Part shown: positions 2,765-8,486 of the stretch, piece by piece
Layout: every line of letters begins with the position of its first letter
Position numbering within the stretch: the first letter of the stretch is position 1
DNA from: Methanosarcina sp.
GTDB taxonomy: Archaea > Halobacteriota > Methanosarcinia > Methanosarcinales > Methanosarcinaceae
Reading direction: 5' to 3'
NCBI GenBank assembly: GCA_013330315.1
Contig: DUIO01000033.1
Span: forward strand, 18,485 to 30,167
DNA length: 11,683 bases
Made by a program: the position numbers and the translations under genes
The notes under the pieces: generated by a model
What the model was told of the DNA's origin: nothing
The model's database searches: none
The model's input: only the letters and a program-made list of their open reading frames with translations

Positions 2765-3391
2765 AGAAAAACCCCATGCTATTAACTGTTTTTTAATATC
2801 CCTTAATTCATCATCTGAAAAAGCGAGCCCCTGATAATGGCGCATAGAGGTTAAAGAATCGTGACCCTGCCGTAAACACACAGTTGACTCGATAACTCCG
2901 GAAGCAATTAACCAGGACTCCAATGTTTTTCTACTTGACTTTACCGAGAGTCCATAAGGGTTCATGCCTGCAGATAGAGCCCATCTCTGAAGGTTCTTAT
3001 TCCAGGTGCTTTCTAAGGGAGGTTTACGAGCCTGCCAGAAGTCCTTTAGAAGATAATGGAACATGGAAGGAAGAGGATGAATAGTTCTTTCTAACTGCCT
3101 TCTTTTGTGCTTCTTCTGGGCTTCTTCCGGAAGATGAATTATGTTTCTTCTCTCATTGTACCAGGCAGGATTATCATAGAGCCTTAAAAGCTCCGCGTAG
3201 CGCATACCCGTAATTAAAAGAATATCTAAAGTTGTTTTATGCTGATCTTTTGGAATAGCGGCCTTTAATGCTTCATATTCTTTGGGGGTAAGGATTCTTA
3301 CATCTTTCACGTAAAAATGTAAAGCTTCAGAATCTTTTTCGTAACCTGATTTAGGGTATTTTACCAAAAAATCACCAAAGTATGTATACAC
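2759..3391 (-). CDS. Compact tyrosine recombinase/integrase (archaeal SSV-like catalytic domain)
   Basis: The 210-residue product is almost only the catalytic domain of a tyrosine recombinase. Visible catalytic residues are Arg64 (TGMRYAELL), a Lys-rich hairpin near 94-102, Lys151-x-x-Arg154 (the K-x-x-R box that replaces H-x-x-R in SSV-type archaeal integrases), His177 (RQGHDSL) and the nucleophile Tyr186 (MRHYQG). It would cut and rejoin DNA through a phosphotyrosine. Only about 30 residues precede the catalytic domain, so the usual core-binding domain is absent; full SSV integrases are about 330 residues. It is therefore a minimal recombinase or the C-terminal part of one split at an attachment site. 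An in-frame stop (3401-3403) rules out a longer frame. The start is GTG at 3391; TTG at 3367, three bases after GGTGAT, is an alternative. A possible core site lies just upstream at 3467-3497. Confidence 0.85.
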   Translation of the reverse strand: MYTYFGDFLVKYPKSGYEKDSEALHFYVKDVRILTPKEYEALKAAIPKDQHKTTLDILLITGMRYAELLRLYDNPAWYNERRNIIHLPEEAQKKHKRRQLERTIHPLPSMFHYLLKDFWQARKPPLESTWNKNLQRWALSAGMNPYGLSVKSSRKTLESWLIASGVIESTVCLRQGHDSLTSMRHYQGLAFSDDELRDIKKQLIAWGFSL

Positions 3392-3402
3392 AGATTTTAT
3401 TT

Positions 3403-3497
3403 AAACCTATGCATAATTAAGGTTTTAAGCTTAGAAATATCCAATATTTCCGGAAAAAAGGACAAAATGCATAGGTTTTCCTATAAAACCTGTGCAT
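3403..3497. repeat. Recombinase-core-like inverted repeat and extra arm upstream of integrase
   Basis: At 3467-3497 two 13-base arms, ATGCATAGGTTTT and AAAACCTGTGCAT, face each other across the five-base spacer CCTAT; they match in 12 of 13 positions. A third arm copy, AAACCTATGCAT, lies at 3403-3414 next to the integrase start. The 13-spacer-13 layout resembles core sites of tyrosine recombinases. Between the copies are a GAAATAT-CCA-ATATTTC inverted repeat (3434-3450) and TTTCCGGAAA (3447-3456). The site could be attP, a multimer-resolution site or an operator for the integrase gene; function is inferred. Confidence 0.5.
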
Positions 3498-3522
3498 GGA
3501 CTGTAGAGTAAATTTACAGAAA

Positions 3523-3548
3523 ACTTAGCATCACTACCGATACTAAGT
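3523..3548 (-). terminator. Stem-loop at the end of the HEPN gene
   Basis: On the minus strand, ACTTAGTATC and GATGCTAAGT pair over ten positions (one G-U) around the six-base loop GGTAGT. The HEPN stop codon TAG (3545-3543) lies inside the first arm, and the second arm runs into a short T stretch. This suits a transcript end. The GATACTAAGT half-site also occurs at 9454-9463, so a protein-binding role is possible. Confidence 0.45.
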
Positions 3549-4244
3549 CTTTGATTCCTTTTTACTTTGTTTATACTTCATTTCTTTTGAAATTAAAAAA
3601 TTAGCAAAATCTTCATATTTCTTATTGTGCAATTGTTGTTGTTTTTCCGTAACTCTATTATAAATATAATCGAAATCTCTTTTGAAAGTAGGAGTAGATA
3701 CCGCAAGATTATGTATCATTTGTGACAAATCTTTGAATATTTTGTATCTGAGGCTAATCTTCAGATAATTGTCATCGTTGATCATTCTTGTCAAATCTTG
3801 ATTTATATCGAGTAACTTATTATTAAAAGCATATTTCCATTGACCATGAGCTAATCTATTTCTCAATTCGGCGGAAGATTTCAAATGTTCGGTTATAATA
3901 TCAATTAATAAATCATATCTATTCTTGTTTATTGGATTGCTTGCATCATTTTGAAAACTTTTATTATATGCTATTTCTAAAGTTTTCTTCCATCTTTTTT
4001 CTAGTGAACTATTTCCGATAACTGTTTTTATTTCATCTTCTGTAAATGCATTTATTTCATAGATTAATTTTATAATTCGCACTTCAGTCCACGAATTAAC
4101 CAAAAAAGCTAGAATTTTTGTATAAACATCAATGTTTATTGTCTCTTCTTTTCGAATCGAATTTTTTAAAGTGACTTCTACTGACGAAATTGCTTTTTCT
4201 AATAATTTTAAATTTTCACAATGTTCATAGTAATATAAATTCAA
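3543..4244 (-). CDS. HEPN-family protein, probable RNase
   Basis: This 233-residue, mostly helical protein carries ELRNRLAHGQW, with Arg128 and His133 forming the R-x4-H motif that is the active site of HEPN ribonucleases. The R-N-R-L-A-H form is typical of catalytically competent HEPN domains in toxin and defence proteins, which usually act as dimers on RNA. Helices around 10-65 and 105-185 would form the domain; the C-terminus is Lys-rich. The start is TTG at 4244, supported by GAGGTG five bases upstream. No methylase, nucleotidyltransferase (MNT) or other protein antitoxin lies beside it. Instead a tRNA-like sequence ends 27 bases upstream on the same strand, so both may be on one transcript. 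The gene is more AT-rich than the replication and virion-like genes, consistent with acquisition as cargo. The target RNA is unknown; a non-toxic HEPN RNA-binding role cannot be excluded. Confidence 0.75.
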   Translation of the reverse strand: MNLYYYEHCENLKLLEKAISSVEVTLKNSIRKEETINIDVYTKILAFLVNSWTEVRIIKLIYEINAFTEDEIKTVIGNSSLEKRWKKTLEIAYNKSFQNDASNPINKNRYDLLIDIITEHLKSSAELRNRLAHGQWKYAFNNKLLDINQDLTRMINDDNYLKISLRYKIFKDLSQMIHNLAVSTPTFKRDFDYIYNRVTEKQQQLHNKKYEDFANFLISKEMKYKQSKKESKT

Positions 4245-4271
4245 CAGAACACCTCGAATCGAAAAGAGTAT

Positions 4272-4343
4272 GAATGGAAGAGGGAATCGAACCCTCTTAA
4301 ATTCTCACTTATGTGAGTGTGTTTACCTTTACACCATCCCAGG
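4272..4343 (-). tRNA. tRNA-like gene lacking an anticodon triplet (atypical or pseudo tRNA)
   Basis: Read on the minus strand, 72 bases fold as a tRNA: positions 8-9 TG, D-arm GTGT-AAAGGTAA-ACAC with the conserved GG, T-arm GAGGG-TTCGATT-CCCTC with the canonical T-loop, and an acceptor of CCTGGGA against TTCCATT that pairs at five of seven positions (the outer two do not pair). A shifted acceptor GGATGG/CCATTC also pairs over six. The anticodon stem CTCAC/GTGAG is perfect but closes on the tetraloop ATAA. This equals a normal loop with U33 and a purine 37 kept and three bases missing, so no anticodon can be read. The variable region AATTTAA has seven bases. A TATA-like TTTAAATATC (4364-4373) sits about 26 bases before the 5' end. 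It could be a decayed tRNA, an integrase attachment remnant or a functional tRNA mimic. Confidence 0.55.
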
Positions 4344-4363
4344 AAATATAAAAAATACTCTTT

Positions 4364-4373
4364 GATATTTAAA
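4364..4373 (-). promoter_or_regulatory. TATA-like promoter of the tRNA-like/HEPN unit
   Basis: On the minus strand AAAAAGTTTAAATATC gives a purine-rich BRE-like stretch followed by a TATA-like box centred at about 4368. The usual 25-27 base spacing puts transcription start at about 4342, the first base of the tRNA-like fold. A second AT-rich box (TTTTATATTT, near 4348-4357) would start inside the fold and is less likely. Confidence 0.45.
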
Positions 4374-4530
4374 CTTTTTGAGATTTTTAGTTAAATCGCT
4401 TCACAAGAAAATTACTTGTTACTAAAATAATAAACAGAATGAGTCAATTGATAGAGACGAACTTAAAAAGAAAAGGCAGTGTTGTAATTTTTCTGTAAAT
4501 TGGATATTTTTACATATTCCGCCAAAAAGG

Positions 4531-4891: not shown

Positions 4892-5725
4892 TTATACTTG
4901 TGAGTATAAAGGTAAAACCCACTTAATTTTTTTATCATTGCTTGATAGATTCTCTTCTGGGTTCTCAATCCATGAATAATACGCTATTTTTGTTTTGCGG
5001 GTTTGTCCTTTATATTTACCCGAATTATAAAAAACGTCGATTTTTCTATATTCGACCCGCAGATTAATTTTATGCGTTTTGTTTAAATTAATAAGAGCAC
5101 CATTTACATTCTTCGGGGCAAGTCCGGATTGCTCTATAATTTCTTTATTTGTTAAAGGTGACGTAGCAGATTTTAGACAGGCAATTACAGCGCTAGAATA
5201 AGAAAGTTTAGTTACTTTTTGACGATCAGTATCTACTTTTTGGCTATCAGTATCTACTTTTTGGATATCAGTATCTACTTTTCGGCTATAATTATTCGAG
5301 TTTTGCTTAATCTCAGGCAAACATGAAACCAAATTATTGTTTAAAGTTTCAATTTTCTTATCTTTTTTATATAAATGATTTATTTGTTTTTCTTGCGTTT
5401 TACTTCTTTTTTCAAGTTCGGCAAGCTTTTCTAAAATTGTTCTAAATTTATCGCTTAAATTATCATATCTGCTCTGGTATCCTATAATGTCGGTATAATG
5501 ATACGCAGCGACTCTACCGGGAGCGTTTTCAATAAGGGCTTCAAAAATATTTAAACTCTCATCAAAAGCTGATTTACTGGTATTGCTTATAGTGTTTAAG
5601 TACAGACTTCTCATTGCCTGTGCTAAGTCTTGCGTAAAATCTGGTGGCGCAAAAATAAAAAAGGGTATAGCTGTTTTAGTAGCTATATCTAATGCCCTCT
5701 CTCTGTCCGTTTTCCAATCTAACAT
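4892..5725 (-). CDS. Probable ParA partner: coiled-coil and winged-helix DNA-binding protein
   Basis: The 277-residue product follows parA and overlaps its end by 50 bases; AGGAG eleven bases before the ATG at 5725 supports this start. An N-terminal helical region (1-85) is followed by a coiled coil (about 88-135, KLAELEKRSKTQEKQ), a polar linker with three heptads KVDTDxQ (149-169), and a winged-helix-like domain (176-235, with LTNKEIIEQSGLAPKNVNGAL as helix-turn-helix and KINLRVEYRKIDVFY as the wing). ParA partners normally bind a centromere and stimulate the ATPase, and position and layout fit this, although the protein shows no ParB domain. Archaeal partition systems often use unrelated DNA-binding partners. 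The three heptads are encoded by 21-bp direct repeats that may also be DNA sites. Confidence 0.6.
   Translation of the reverse strand: MLDWKTDRERALDIATKTAIPFFIFAPPDFTQDLAQAMRSLYLNTISNTSKSAFDESLNIFEALIENAPGRVAAYHYTDIIGYQSRYDNLSDKFRTILEKLAELEKRSKTQEKQINHLYKKDKKIETLNNNLVSCLPEIKQNSNNYSRKVDTDIQKVDTDSQKVDTDRQKVTKLSYSSAVIACLKSATSPLTNKEIIEQSGLAPKNVNGALINLNKTHKINLRVEYRKIDVFYNSGKYKGQTRKTKIAYYSWIENPEENLSSNDKKIKWVLPLYSQV
5225..5287. repeat. Three 21-bp direct repeats inside the ParA partner gene
   Basis: Units at 5225-5245, 5246-5266 and 5267-5287 differ by one or two bases; each contains AGTATCTACTTTT. The unit length equals both seven codons and two DNA helical turns. Similar sequence outside the gene, TAGTATCATCTACTTTGC (4679-4696) and, inverted, GCCAAAAAGGGGTAG (4521-4535), suggests that the DNA itself may be a binding site, for example iterons or a centromere. 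Confidence 0.65.
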
Positions 5726-7181: not shown

Positions 7182-8486
7182 ATGAGCCAGTTAACTGAAA
7201 GAATGTATGGTTATGAATTATCAGGTGTTGAGTATCAGTTAATTTTCAATAAGACTGATTTGGGTTTTGTAAGAATCCTTAATAAAAAAGAATTTTGTTT
7301 AGATCCTTCGCCATTTTTAAACGCTCCGAGAGCAATCGTTTATGTTATCGATGATTGCCCAATGCCAGAAGAGCGCCAATTGATCAGAGTTACGACAACA
7401 GAACAGGAAGAGCGTATAACTGGCAATCTCCCGAAGGCCGGGAAAACTTACAACCTTTCGAAAACTGTTTATAAATACGTCCGGTCATGGGAAGAAGTCG
7501 ACCCAAATGTAATTAAAATACGAAAAACGCGAGAGGATTACGGAGATGAGCAGGACCACTATTTAGAGACAGTCGAGTTTATAGACTATTTTGGGTTGCC
7601 GTTTAAGTCCCTAGATCCTGATAACCCTATTGAGCCGATTTCGAATACGTTGGCATTTTACGCGGCTTCCTCTCAAGTTATTGGTCCTAATTCTAAAGGC
7701 GGTGTAAACGCTGCAGTAAGATGTATTGATAAAGCTTGGAAGGTTCTTGAAAAAAGAATATTTCCTTTAATTCCTGATGAGTTTAAAAAAACATCCTCAG
7801 TCAATTTTTATAAATATGGAGTAACGGAGGAAATAGTAAACCCTCTTAGATCAAAAGAAGTTAATCACGCTTATCCAAATCCTGATAAATTAAATTCTGA
7901 GATTTTGATAAGCTTAGGGCAATATGAATTAAGGCCGTATAAGGACTACAGAGAAGATTTAACATATCTGCGTCCAATGGCTAGGGCTTTTCAACTTGAT
8001 ATGTTGTTGTTCTCGCCGCGTACGACTACGAAAACTGACAAGGTTATGCTTGATAATGTTTACGATATGAGAAACAAAGTCCTGAATGCAGGTTATGACG
8101 TGAATAAGATAGATTTAGGCATGACCGTACCAAAATTAAGCGCGTCTTACGCCAGGATGAATTTAAAACCTGAGATATCAAAAGAGCATATTGAATCAGC
8201 ATATCATTTTTGGTTTGATGCATTCGAACAGGCGTTAGGATATACACAACTTCAAACGTCTAGTGCTGATCAAAGTGATATTTCAAGACTTGGAAGCGGA
8301 GCGTTGACTTTGTATACATATCTCGAAGAAACGTATGGAGTCGAGACGGCTATCCCAAAAACGGCAGTATATGAGACGAAAATCATGTCTGCTTATTTGC
8401 TGGAAGAGGCGATAGAAAAGCTGTTGGCTAGGGGTTTTATGATTTACCCGAATACAAAAGAGTTTAAGTTATTGTCTTTGAAGTAA
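7182..8486 (+). CDS. Probable replication protein with MCM-like C-terminus
   Basis: The 434-residue product is transcribed divergently from parA. The stretch from about 316 to 352 (VPKLSASYARMNLKPEISKEHIESAY) resembles the lid region of archaeal MCM helicases, where a run of the type L-x-E-A-x-A-R-x-x-L-S is followed by a Val/Ile-x-x-E-D helix. The last 65 residues look like a winged helix, as in MCM. I do not find a Walker A: GNLPKAGKT (about 81-89) is one residue too long. No arginine finger could be placed. It may be a degenerate MCM relative, an adaptor that recruits the host MCM to the rolling-circle origin, or an unrelated initiator. GTG at 7146 gives a longer frame, but the ATG at 7182 fits the TATA spacing. 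Confidence 0.45.
   Translation: MSQLTERMYGYELSGVEYQLIFNKTDLGFVRILNKKEFCLDPSPFLNAPRAIVYVIDDCPMPEERQLIRVTTTEQEERITGNLPKAGKTYNLSKTVYKYVRSWEEVDPNVIKIRKTREDYGDEQDHYLETVEFIDYFGLPFKSLDPDNPIEPISNTLAFYAASSQVIGPNSKGGVNAAVRCIDKAWKVLEKRIFPLIPDEFKKTSSVNFYKYGVTEEIVNPLRSKEVNHAYPNPDKLNSEILISLGQYELRPYKDYREDLTYLRPMARAFQLDMLLFSPRTTTKTDKVMLDNVYDMRNKVLNAGYDVNKIDLGMTVPKLSASYARMNLKPEISKEHIESAYHFWFDAFEQALGYTQLQTSSADQSDISRLGSGALTLYTYLEETYGVETAIPKTAVYETKIMSAYLLEEAIEKLLARGFMIYPNTKEFKLLSLK

Follow-up and report, generated by a model that had tools for sequence, protein, structure and literature searches.

What is a tRNA-like sequence doing directly ahead of a gene for a putative ribonuclease? In an 11,683-nt stretch of a Methanosarcina sp. 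contig—the window in what follows, taken at its full length—a gene for a HEPN-type protein is preceded on the same strand by a short RNA that resembles a tRNA without its anticodon. The original prediction held that such an RNA could serve as a decoy, an RNA antitoxin, or a resistant substrate mimic of the enzyme. We asked whether the RNA is real, whether it belongs to the gene, and what it may do there.

An RNA Ahead of a HEPN-Type Gene

The window comprises the last 11.7 kb (18485–30167) of a 30,167-base contig, and the features of the locus are collected in Table 1. The sequence and the ORF list agree with the predicted arrangement, in which the tRNA-like part ends 27 bases before the TTG start codon of the HEPN gene on the same strand.

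Table 1. Features of the locus, in window positions
Feature	Positions	Strand	Basis
HEPN-type ribonuclease gene	3543..4244	minus	233 aa, TTG start; ORF list; putative RNase activity
tRNA-mimic RNA	4272..4343	minus	RF00005 29.9 bits; covariance model R1 75.3 bits at 4274-4343 (window RNA in the R1 training set); covariance model R2 68 bits; covariation
TATA box TTTAAATA	4366..4373	minus	starts 30 nt before RNA 5' end; read from sequence
Shine-Dalgarno-like GAGGTG	4250..4255	minus	5 nt before HEPN TTG; read from sequence
Codons of catalytic-type motif R128-N-R-L-A-H133	3846..3863	minus	alignment invariance

In the register shared with its family, the window RNA has a 4-bp acceptor (UGGG/UCCA); folded alone, it favors an overlapping register that adds pairs from GGAUGG/CCAUUC. 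The D arm has 4 bp (GUGU/ACAC) and a loop containing GG, and the T arm has 6 bp (AGAGGG-UUCGAUU-CCCUCU). The third arm (CUCAC-AUAA-GUGAG, 5 bp) has no 7-nt anticodon loop: It measures 14 nt with a 4-nt loop, against 17 nt in tRNA, and the description of the RNA as anticodon-less was therefore apt. The 3′ end reads UCCAUUC followed by AUACUC, with no CCA tail.

ARAGORN does not call this RNA as a tRNA, and an Rfam scan of the whole window at gathering score gave no match; on a 301-base stretch, the canonical tRNA model (RF00005) scores it at 29.9 bits, just reaching the cut-off of 29. Folding the RNA by itself sets it only slightly apart from its shuffles (z −2.0; 8 of 200 do equally well), which makes the single sequence weak evidence. 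A covariance model built from 25 bacterial RNAs only (R2), by comparison, scores the window RNA at 68 bits (E 4.6e-20) as the sole match in the window and the rest of the contig; R2 also finds the two archaeal relatives of this RNA and nothing else in the four sources. We take this bacteria-only sequence comparison as decisive support for the reality of the window RNA. Chance or a folding artifact is ruled out by this model together with the covariation across the family described below.

Pairing of RNA and Gene across Homologous Loci

To survey the pairing, we drew 80 loci (of 99 confirmed) from the genomes of 84,980 species and 15 from IMG/VR; leaving out L099, whose match starts at base 2 without upstream DNA, gave 94 loci, which form 83 groups at 85% identity and include some near-copies. 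In 87 of the 94, the 200 nt upstream of the match contain a T-arm motif in the same orientation. Covariance model R1, built from a MAFFT alignment of 28 RNAs (A2), detects a same-strand RNA upstream of the HEPN gene at E ≤ 0.01 in 81 of 94 loci and at E ≤ 1 in 85; 27 of the 94 belonged to the training set, and 54 of the other 67 matched upstream at E ≤ 0.01. The four matches gained at E ≤ 1 are weak (L058, L060, L088 with a 20-base fragment, and L108). Across all 97 sources (977 kb, both strands), R1 returns 87 matches at E ≤ 0.01: the 81 upstream loci, the window, the second unit of L033, the inverted RNA of L056, and three true tRNAs (one in L076, two in L102). At E ≤ 1, the model also matches four true tRNAs and a 17-base fragment elsewhere. 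A T arm and a cloverleaf-like fold are visible by eye in L085, L092, L113, and L122.

The check on whether homologous genes commonly lack the RNA had been set beforehand, and they do not (81 of 94 carry it). The companion expectation of an RNA always 20–60 bases upstream stood as to the pairing (at least 81 of 94 loci) and proved too narrow as to distance: From the RNA to the start of the tblastn match, the spacing runs from 25 to 277 nt, with a median of 70. On these sequence comparisons, we regard the pairing of RNA and HEPN gene as established.

Departures from the common arrangement are few. L059 and L079 carry intact HEPN genes with no RNA detected in the DNA around them; they make up two of the three longest end branches in the protein tree and perhaps have another partner or function. 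L083 is a truncated HEPN gene without the RNA, and in L123 the contig begins 27 nt before the HEPN match. In L056, the RNA (3722–3656, minus) lies convergently behind its HEPN gene (2890–3612, plus), with promoter-like sequence and a hairpin recognized by eye; because of this placement, the RNA could act only in trans there. L033, a small Olleya contig, holds two divergent HEPN genes (1881–2588 and 3517–4290), each with an RNA of its own (1789–1866 and 3392–3464). Among further records, R1 matches strongly in L124 and L125 and weakly in L127 (13.8 bits); it has no match in L126, a gene remnant, or in L128, where a T-loop and a cloverleaf-like leader are visible by eye, and it misses the RNA of L142, likewise visible by eye.

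Among 149 archaeal relatives of the window's genome (96 of them at least 90% complete), the HEPN gene occurs in three, and an RNA above 40 bits occurs in exactly those three. At E ≤ 1e-7 with stricter filters, R1 gives five matches in this set: the three HEPN genomes at 65–76 bits and two at 38 bits, which ARAGORN reads as tRNA-Ala and tRNA-Gly. In P0009 and P0015, the predicted proteins start upstream and apparently read through tRNA-like sequence (GGFDS, WRVRVP), which suggests that the RNA is present there too.

A Cloverleaf with a Free Third Arm

Covariation identifies what is conserved in the RNA. In alignment A4 (81 RNAs, fitted to the model), 93.3% of cells are paired vs. 63.8% in shuffles; the MAFFT alignment of 28 RNAs gives 94.2% vs. 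74.6%. In A4, 18 of 19 pairs have changed on both sides, with contributions from all four helices. At the level of the alignment, this pattern shows that the cloverleaf is under selection. A D-loop GG and a T-loop UUCRANN occur in 81 of 81 RNAs, a conservation that is partly by construction because the model was trained on such loops. In tRNA, these are the parts that make the elbow.

The remaining parts vary. The third arm measures 9–55 nt across the 81 RNAs, with the tRNA length of 17 nt in only 2, which rules out an ordinary tRNA in the other 79. The acceptor is modeled as 4 bp, and the next pair outward forms in 23 of 81. The window RNA has neither the 17-nt anticodon arm with a 7-nt loop nor the 7-bp acceptor with a CCA end of a functional tRNA. 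Covariation, loops, and arm lengths therefore show, in the aligned RNAs, that selection keeps the elbow and the acceptor/T stack and no anticodon, and that the third arm is free in both length and sequence. Arm length serves as the criterion here because predicted loop size also misjudges true tRNAs: Folding closes 8 of 28 true tRNA arms to 3–4 nt (a set that excludes the HEPN-linked RNA of L076 and counts two genes twice).

A free third arm bears on one alternative, in which the RNA is an activator, guide, or bait—a cofactor of the enzyme, or a sensor of phage cutting, modification, or end repair that would switch on general RNA cleavage. The linkage data fit this account too, Cas13-type HEPN enzymes choose their targets by a bound RNA (PMC12737573), and the variable arm could be the sensor; however, the arm is predicted to be a closed stem-loop of 9–55 nt, and we noticed no free guide segment. 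We judge this account rather improbable.

By score alone, the RNA family grades into tRNA. True tRNAs reach 34.2 bits with R1 in the window's own genome and 38.5 bits in its relatives, and many family members score 20–34 bits, within that range. Members below about 40 bits are thus inseparable from tRNA by score, and the case for them depends on position, arm length, and covariation. Given the upstream RNAs of 60 loci, ARAGORN reports a tRNA in 17, assigning an amino acid to 10 and labeling 7 as tRNA-???, and the RNAs of 5 of 18 loci scanned reach the RF00005 cut-off; both results speak against a sharp border between mimic RNA and tRNA. At gathering score, no Rfam family besides tRNA matches the RNAs of the window and the 18 loci. 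One member stands close to this border: In L053 (301–524), genes for a 5S rRNA and a tRNA-Gly immediately precede the HEPN unit, and ARAGORN reads the RNA of the unit as tRNA-Leu(taa).

The HEPN-Type Protein

HEPN superfamily ribonucleases share an R-x4-6-H motif, typically RN...H, which the window protein contains. A sequence search with this protein returned 25 homologues, one of them labeled RiboL-PSP-HEPN by a source. R128, N129, A132, H133, G134, Q135, and W136 are invariant in all 26 proteins; Arg128 and His133, singled out in the original prediction, are thus borne out in homologues found without use of that motif. The same seven residues (RN..AHGQW) are invariant in 82 of 82 aligned members, many of which were found via a pattern containing the RN..AH motif.

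An AlphaFold2 model of the window protein is all-helical (mean pLDDT 93.7). Structure searches with this model gave no match above noise, with near misses including the HEPN proteins AbiV and Csm6′, and a sequence search for solved relatives returned nothing meaningful. The window protein has no Pfam match at E ≤ 0.1, no serious NCBIfam match, and no matching PADLOC model; across the family, any one PADLOC model matches at most 2 of 82 members. Weak Pfam profile matches link 6 of the 82 to HEPN_RiboL-PSP (PF18735) and 1 to HEPN_AbiU2 (PF18734), with which common descent is possible. Because structure and profile searches gave no clear match, we base the HEPN assignment on the motif and the predicted helical fold; ribonuclease activity is probable. 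Metal-independent cleavage is a trait of HEPN ribonucleases, and several other HEPN enzymes cut tRNA.

A Mobile Unit without a Recurrent Protein Partner

The ends of the window's contig share an 84-base direct terminal repeat, and it is therefore probably a circular element of about 30.1 kb; it carries ParA, a Rep-like protein, and an integrase (Pfam). A second tyrosine-recombinase-like ORF is visible by eye at contig positions 7513–8670. Within the window, a short imperfect tandem repeat (5213–5289) lies inside ORF 4892–5725 and encodes a repeated QKVDTD in a coiled-coil-like protein adjoining ParA. The host genome is 60.8% complete and shares its genus with Methanosarcina sp. UBA11020.

We looked for a protein partner by clustering the ORFs within 2.5 kb of the HEPN genes (blastp E ≤ 1e-6). 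The widest cluster reaches 6 of 83 groups and, by eye, resembles a recombinase; for that reason, the RNA is the only recurrent partner seen; a hidden protein antitoxin was sought in the same clusters and none emerged. The earlier remark that no protein antitoxin adjoins the HEPN gene in the window is thus true of the family.

Comparison of related loci delimits the unit. Between the window contig and the part of L029 compared with it, the common DNA amounts to 990 columns at 94% identity and comprises the promoter, the RNA, the HEPN gene, and short flanks; with L030, 721 columns are shared at 76%, ending 36 nt before the RNA. The family was found on plasmids, in one prophage, and on 16 IMG/VR viral contigs (viral scans with A5 and A6 added only one new contig), and the RNA-bearing rows of the protein tree span at least a dozen phyla from both domains. 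These alignments and settings show RNA and gene to be one conserved unit on mobile elements. The family is sporadic: Among 1,157 sampled genomes, it occurs in none besides the three centers, and random genomes therefore gave no independent sample.

The unit reaches Escherichia coli. In a collection of 5,426 E. coli genomes, 298 match a unit from Serratia, and only 2 hold at least 80% of it. In strain NH-21, the RNA scores 74.1 bits and the unit lies beside dicB, ydfD, and hokD, a prophage setting. Among the matches listed (18 of the 297 other E. coli rows), only the C-terminal part of the HEPN gene is present, without the RNA, and the same holds for six phage records. One of these relics, in Escherichia phage D2 (L126), is a C-terminal remnant of a Serratia-like HEPN gene; up to 297 E. 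coli records hold such remnants, which are often unannotated. Annotation overlooks the HEPN–RNA unit: Three annotated records that contain the gene call its product "hypothetical" and list no RNA.

An integrase gene lies 151 nt past the HEPN stop in the window, and the RNA could in principle be an attachment site or a captured tRNA remnant beside it. Against this, the RNA accompanies the HEPN gene across phyla while the commonest neighbor, the recombinase-like one, appears in 6 of 83 groups; apart from itself, the RNA region has a best match of just 21 bases in its own genome; and all helices covary, unlike those of a decaying remnant. We consider such an origin highly improbable. The RNA is located by the HEPN gene, not by an integrase or an element border, which also settles the concern that the tRNA-like part might prove to be only an attachment site at element borders.

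Promoter Motifs and an Alternative Hairpin

Promoter-like motifs cluster at fixed distances from the RNA. TTGACA-like hexamers (5 of 6 bases) peak at −36 to −34 from its first base (23 in 84 loci; at most 4 elsewhere) and TATAAT-like hexamers at −13 to −11 (15 in 84 loci, of which 10 sit at −12; no other position has more than 5). The window's TATA box recurs at −30 in L029 (TATAAATA) and L030 (TTTAAATA). Transcription should therefore begin close to the first base of the RNA and run into the HEPN gene; we infer one promoter, whose start coincides with the RNA 5′ end.

In most bacterial members, the leader is predicted to adopt a second structure that excludes the cloverleaf. In the predicted folds, 68 of 86 RNAs have 6 or more of the initial 10 bases of the 3′ T/acceptor strand paired with downstream sequence; 9 or more of the 10 pair in 39 of 85 loci, vs. 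2.8% of 6,530 swapped combinations. Median energies are −34 kcal/mol for the hairpin segment and −22 kcal/mol for the cloverleaf. In E. coli L124, the hairpin takes in the SD-like GGUGG ahead of the annotated start. Runs of at least four T occur in the hairpin region of 25 of 69 hairpin members, vs. 12% of control windows, and the hairpin may act as an attenuator in some members. It is absent from the window's clade and from a second clade whose acceptor is mostly GGGGG/CCCCC. On the protein tree, the hairpin state changes only twice over 80 labeled rows; L109 is labeled "hairpin" by eye despite 5 of 10 counted pairs, and the tree leaves out near-copies (L070, L075, L104, L118, L119, L120) and L083, which is too short. 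Because L104 and L120 duplicate each other, the tree lacks their sequence altogether.

A hairpin this frequent looks regulatory. The main rival of the decoy reading is cis-autoregulation, in which the RNA would be nothing more than the 5′ leader of the HEPN message. By binding or cutting the mimic there, the enzyme would limit its own expression, and the hairpin would be the off state. The upstream position in 81–85 of 94 loci, the promoter motifs at the RNA 5′ end, the excess of hairpin pairing over swapped combinations, its agreement with the protein tree, and the masked GGUGG in L124 all point this way; indeed, the leader position in nearly all members suits a cis role equally well. The L056 locus, where the RNA follows the gene in inverse orientation and keeps the hairpin, counts against a sole role of this kind, although it is one locus. 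The two clades without the hairpin, the window's own among them, also stand against it, and we further list against it that every RNA above 40 bits in the 149 archaeal relatives accompanies a HEPN gene. On balance, we hold cis-autoregulation as the whole explanation to be unlikely.

A Candidate tRNA Decoy

The reading we lean toward, with modest confidence, is that the RNA restrains the HEPN RNase as an uncleavable tRNA decoy and that the two form a two-component unit. The HEPN protein would recognize the tRNA elbow and would normally cut tRNA or other RNA. The mimic, processed out of the leader, would bind the enzyme tightly and offer no loop to cut, and the enzyme would be kept idle until infection or loss of the element removed the RNA. 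The alternative pairing in most bacterial members, between the 3′ T/acceptor strand and the region before the HEPN start, would tie translation or transcription of the toxin to formation of the cloverleaf.

The points in favor of a decoy are the linkage, the covariation, the recurring RNA-only partnership, the mobility, the dual units of L033, and the arrangement of L056. A decoy, an RNA antitoxin, or a resistant substrate mimic, as originally proposed, each fits these observations. The intact but RNA-less genes of L059 and L079 weigh against a strict antitoxin, which would forbid them.

Relation to Known Systems

The closest parallel is AbiF. Two reports describe AbiF as a HEPN RNase that an RNA encoded in cis keeps in check (PMC12737573, PMC12373285); AbiF with its RNA is reported in prophages (PMC12373285), and Cas13 is held to descend from AbiF (PMC12737573). 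AbiF is a direct precedent for neutralization of a HEPN RNase by such an RNA. Like AbiF–AbiFr (Abi_2; type III-like toxin–antitoxin; RF03085), the unit described here combines a small HEPN-type protein with a small, structured, cis-encoded RNA partner in place of a protein. The two differ in both parts: Abi_2 (PF07751) matches 0 of 82 members at E ≤ 0.01, RF03085 has no match at gathering score in the window and 18 loci nor any up to E 10 in window positions 4150–4450, and the RNA here is a tRNA-like cloverleaf, not the abiF motif.

In classical ToxIN, the RNA comes in tandem repeats and binds and neutralizes the toxin. Type III toxin–antitoxin systems (ToxIN, CptIN, TenpIN) resemble our unit in having the RNA directly upstream of a putative RNase gene (here in 81 of 94 loci), and the T run in 25 of 69 hairpin members is as expected for an attenuating terminator. 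They differ in that the R1 search finds one RNA per HEPN gene rather than tandem repeats, the two RNAs of L033 belonging to two genes; the protein is HEPN-type, not ToxN-type; and neutralization here is putative. HEPN/MNT (type VII) systems have a nucleotidyltransferase antitoxin gene adjacent; among the 10 window proteins, none has an MNT-type Pfam match, and no neighbor family exceeds 6 of 83 groups. Canonical tRNA (RF00005) shares the four helices, the D-loop GG, and the T-loop UUCRANN, and differs from the family in the acceptor and third arm and from the window RNA in the CCA tail and 7-nt anticodon loop. HEPN_RiboL-PSP and HEPN_AbiU2 touch the family only through the weak profile matches given above.

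Threonyl-tRNA synthetase limits its own expression through the tRNA-like thrS operator. That operator, too, is a tRNA mimic at the 5′ end of a message, and the thrS product is a tRNA-binding enzyme; here, the gene encodes a putative RNase and belongs to a mobile unit, and L056 is a natural copy whose RNA lies outside the message. In the open-access literature searched, we came across no description of a HEPN gene paired with a tRNA-like RNA.

A broader proposal combines these elements, and we put it forward tentatively, as somewhat short of an even call: The units would form an undescribed RNase–RNA class that spans bacteria and archaea. Its anticodon-less tRNA mimic would be devoted to an elbow-recognizing HEPN toxin, as antitoxin or as infection sensor, and in most bacteria a hairpin excluding the cloverleaf would couple production of the restraining RNA to that of the toxin.

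Implications

The unit is directly testable because it is small (about 0.9 kb) and has an apparently intact copy in E. coli. If the RNA restrains the enzyme, the family would constitute a toxin–antitoxin or defense class with a tRNA decoy as its antitoxin. It would show how a cell shields its tRNAs from an elbow-reading enzyme and would supply a natural tRNase inhibitor. It would also be a second HEPN-plus-RNA lineage, beside AbiF, the presumed source of Cas13.
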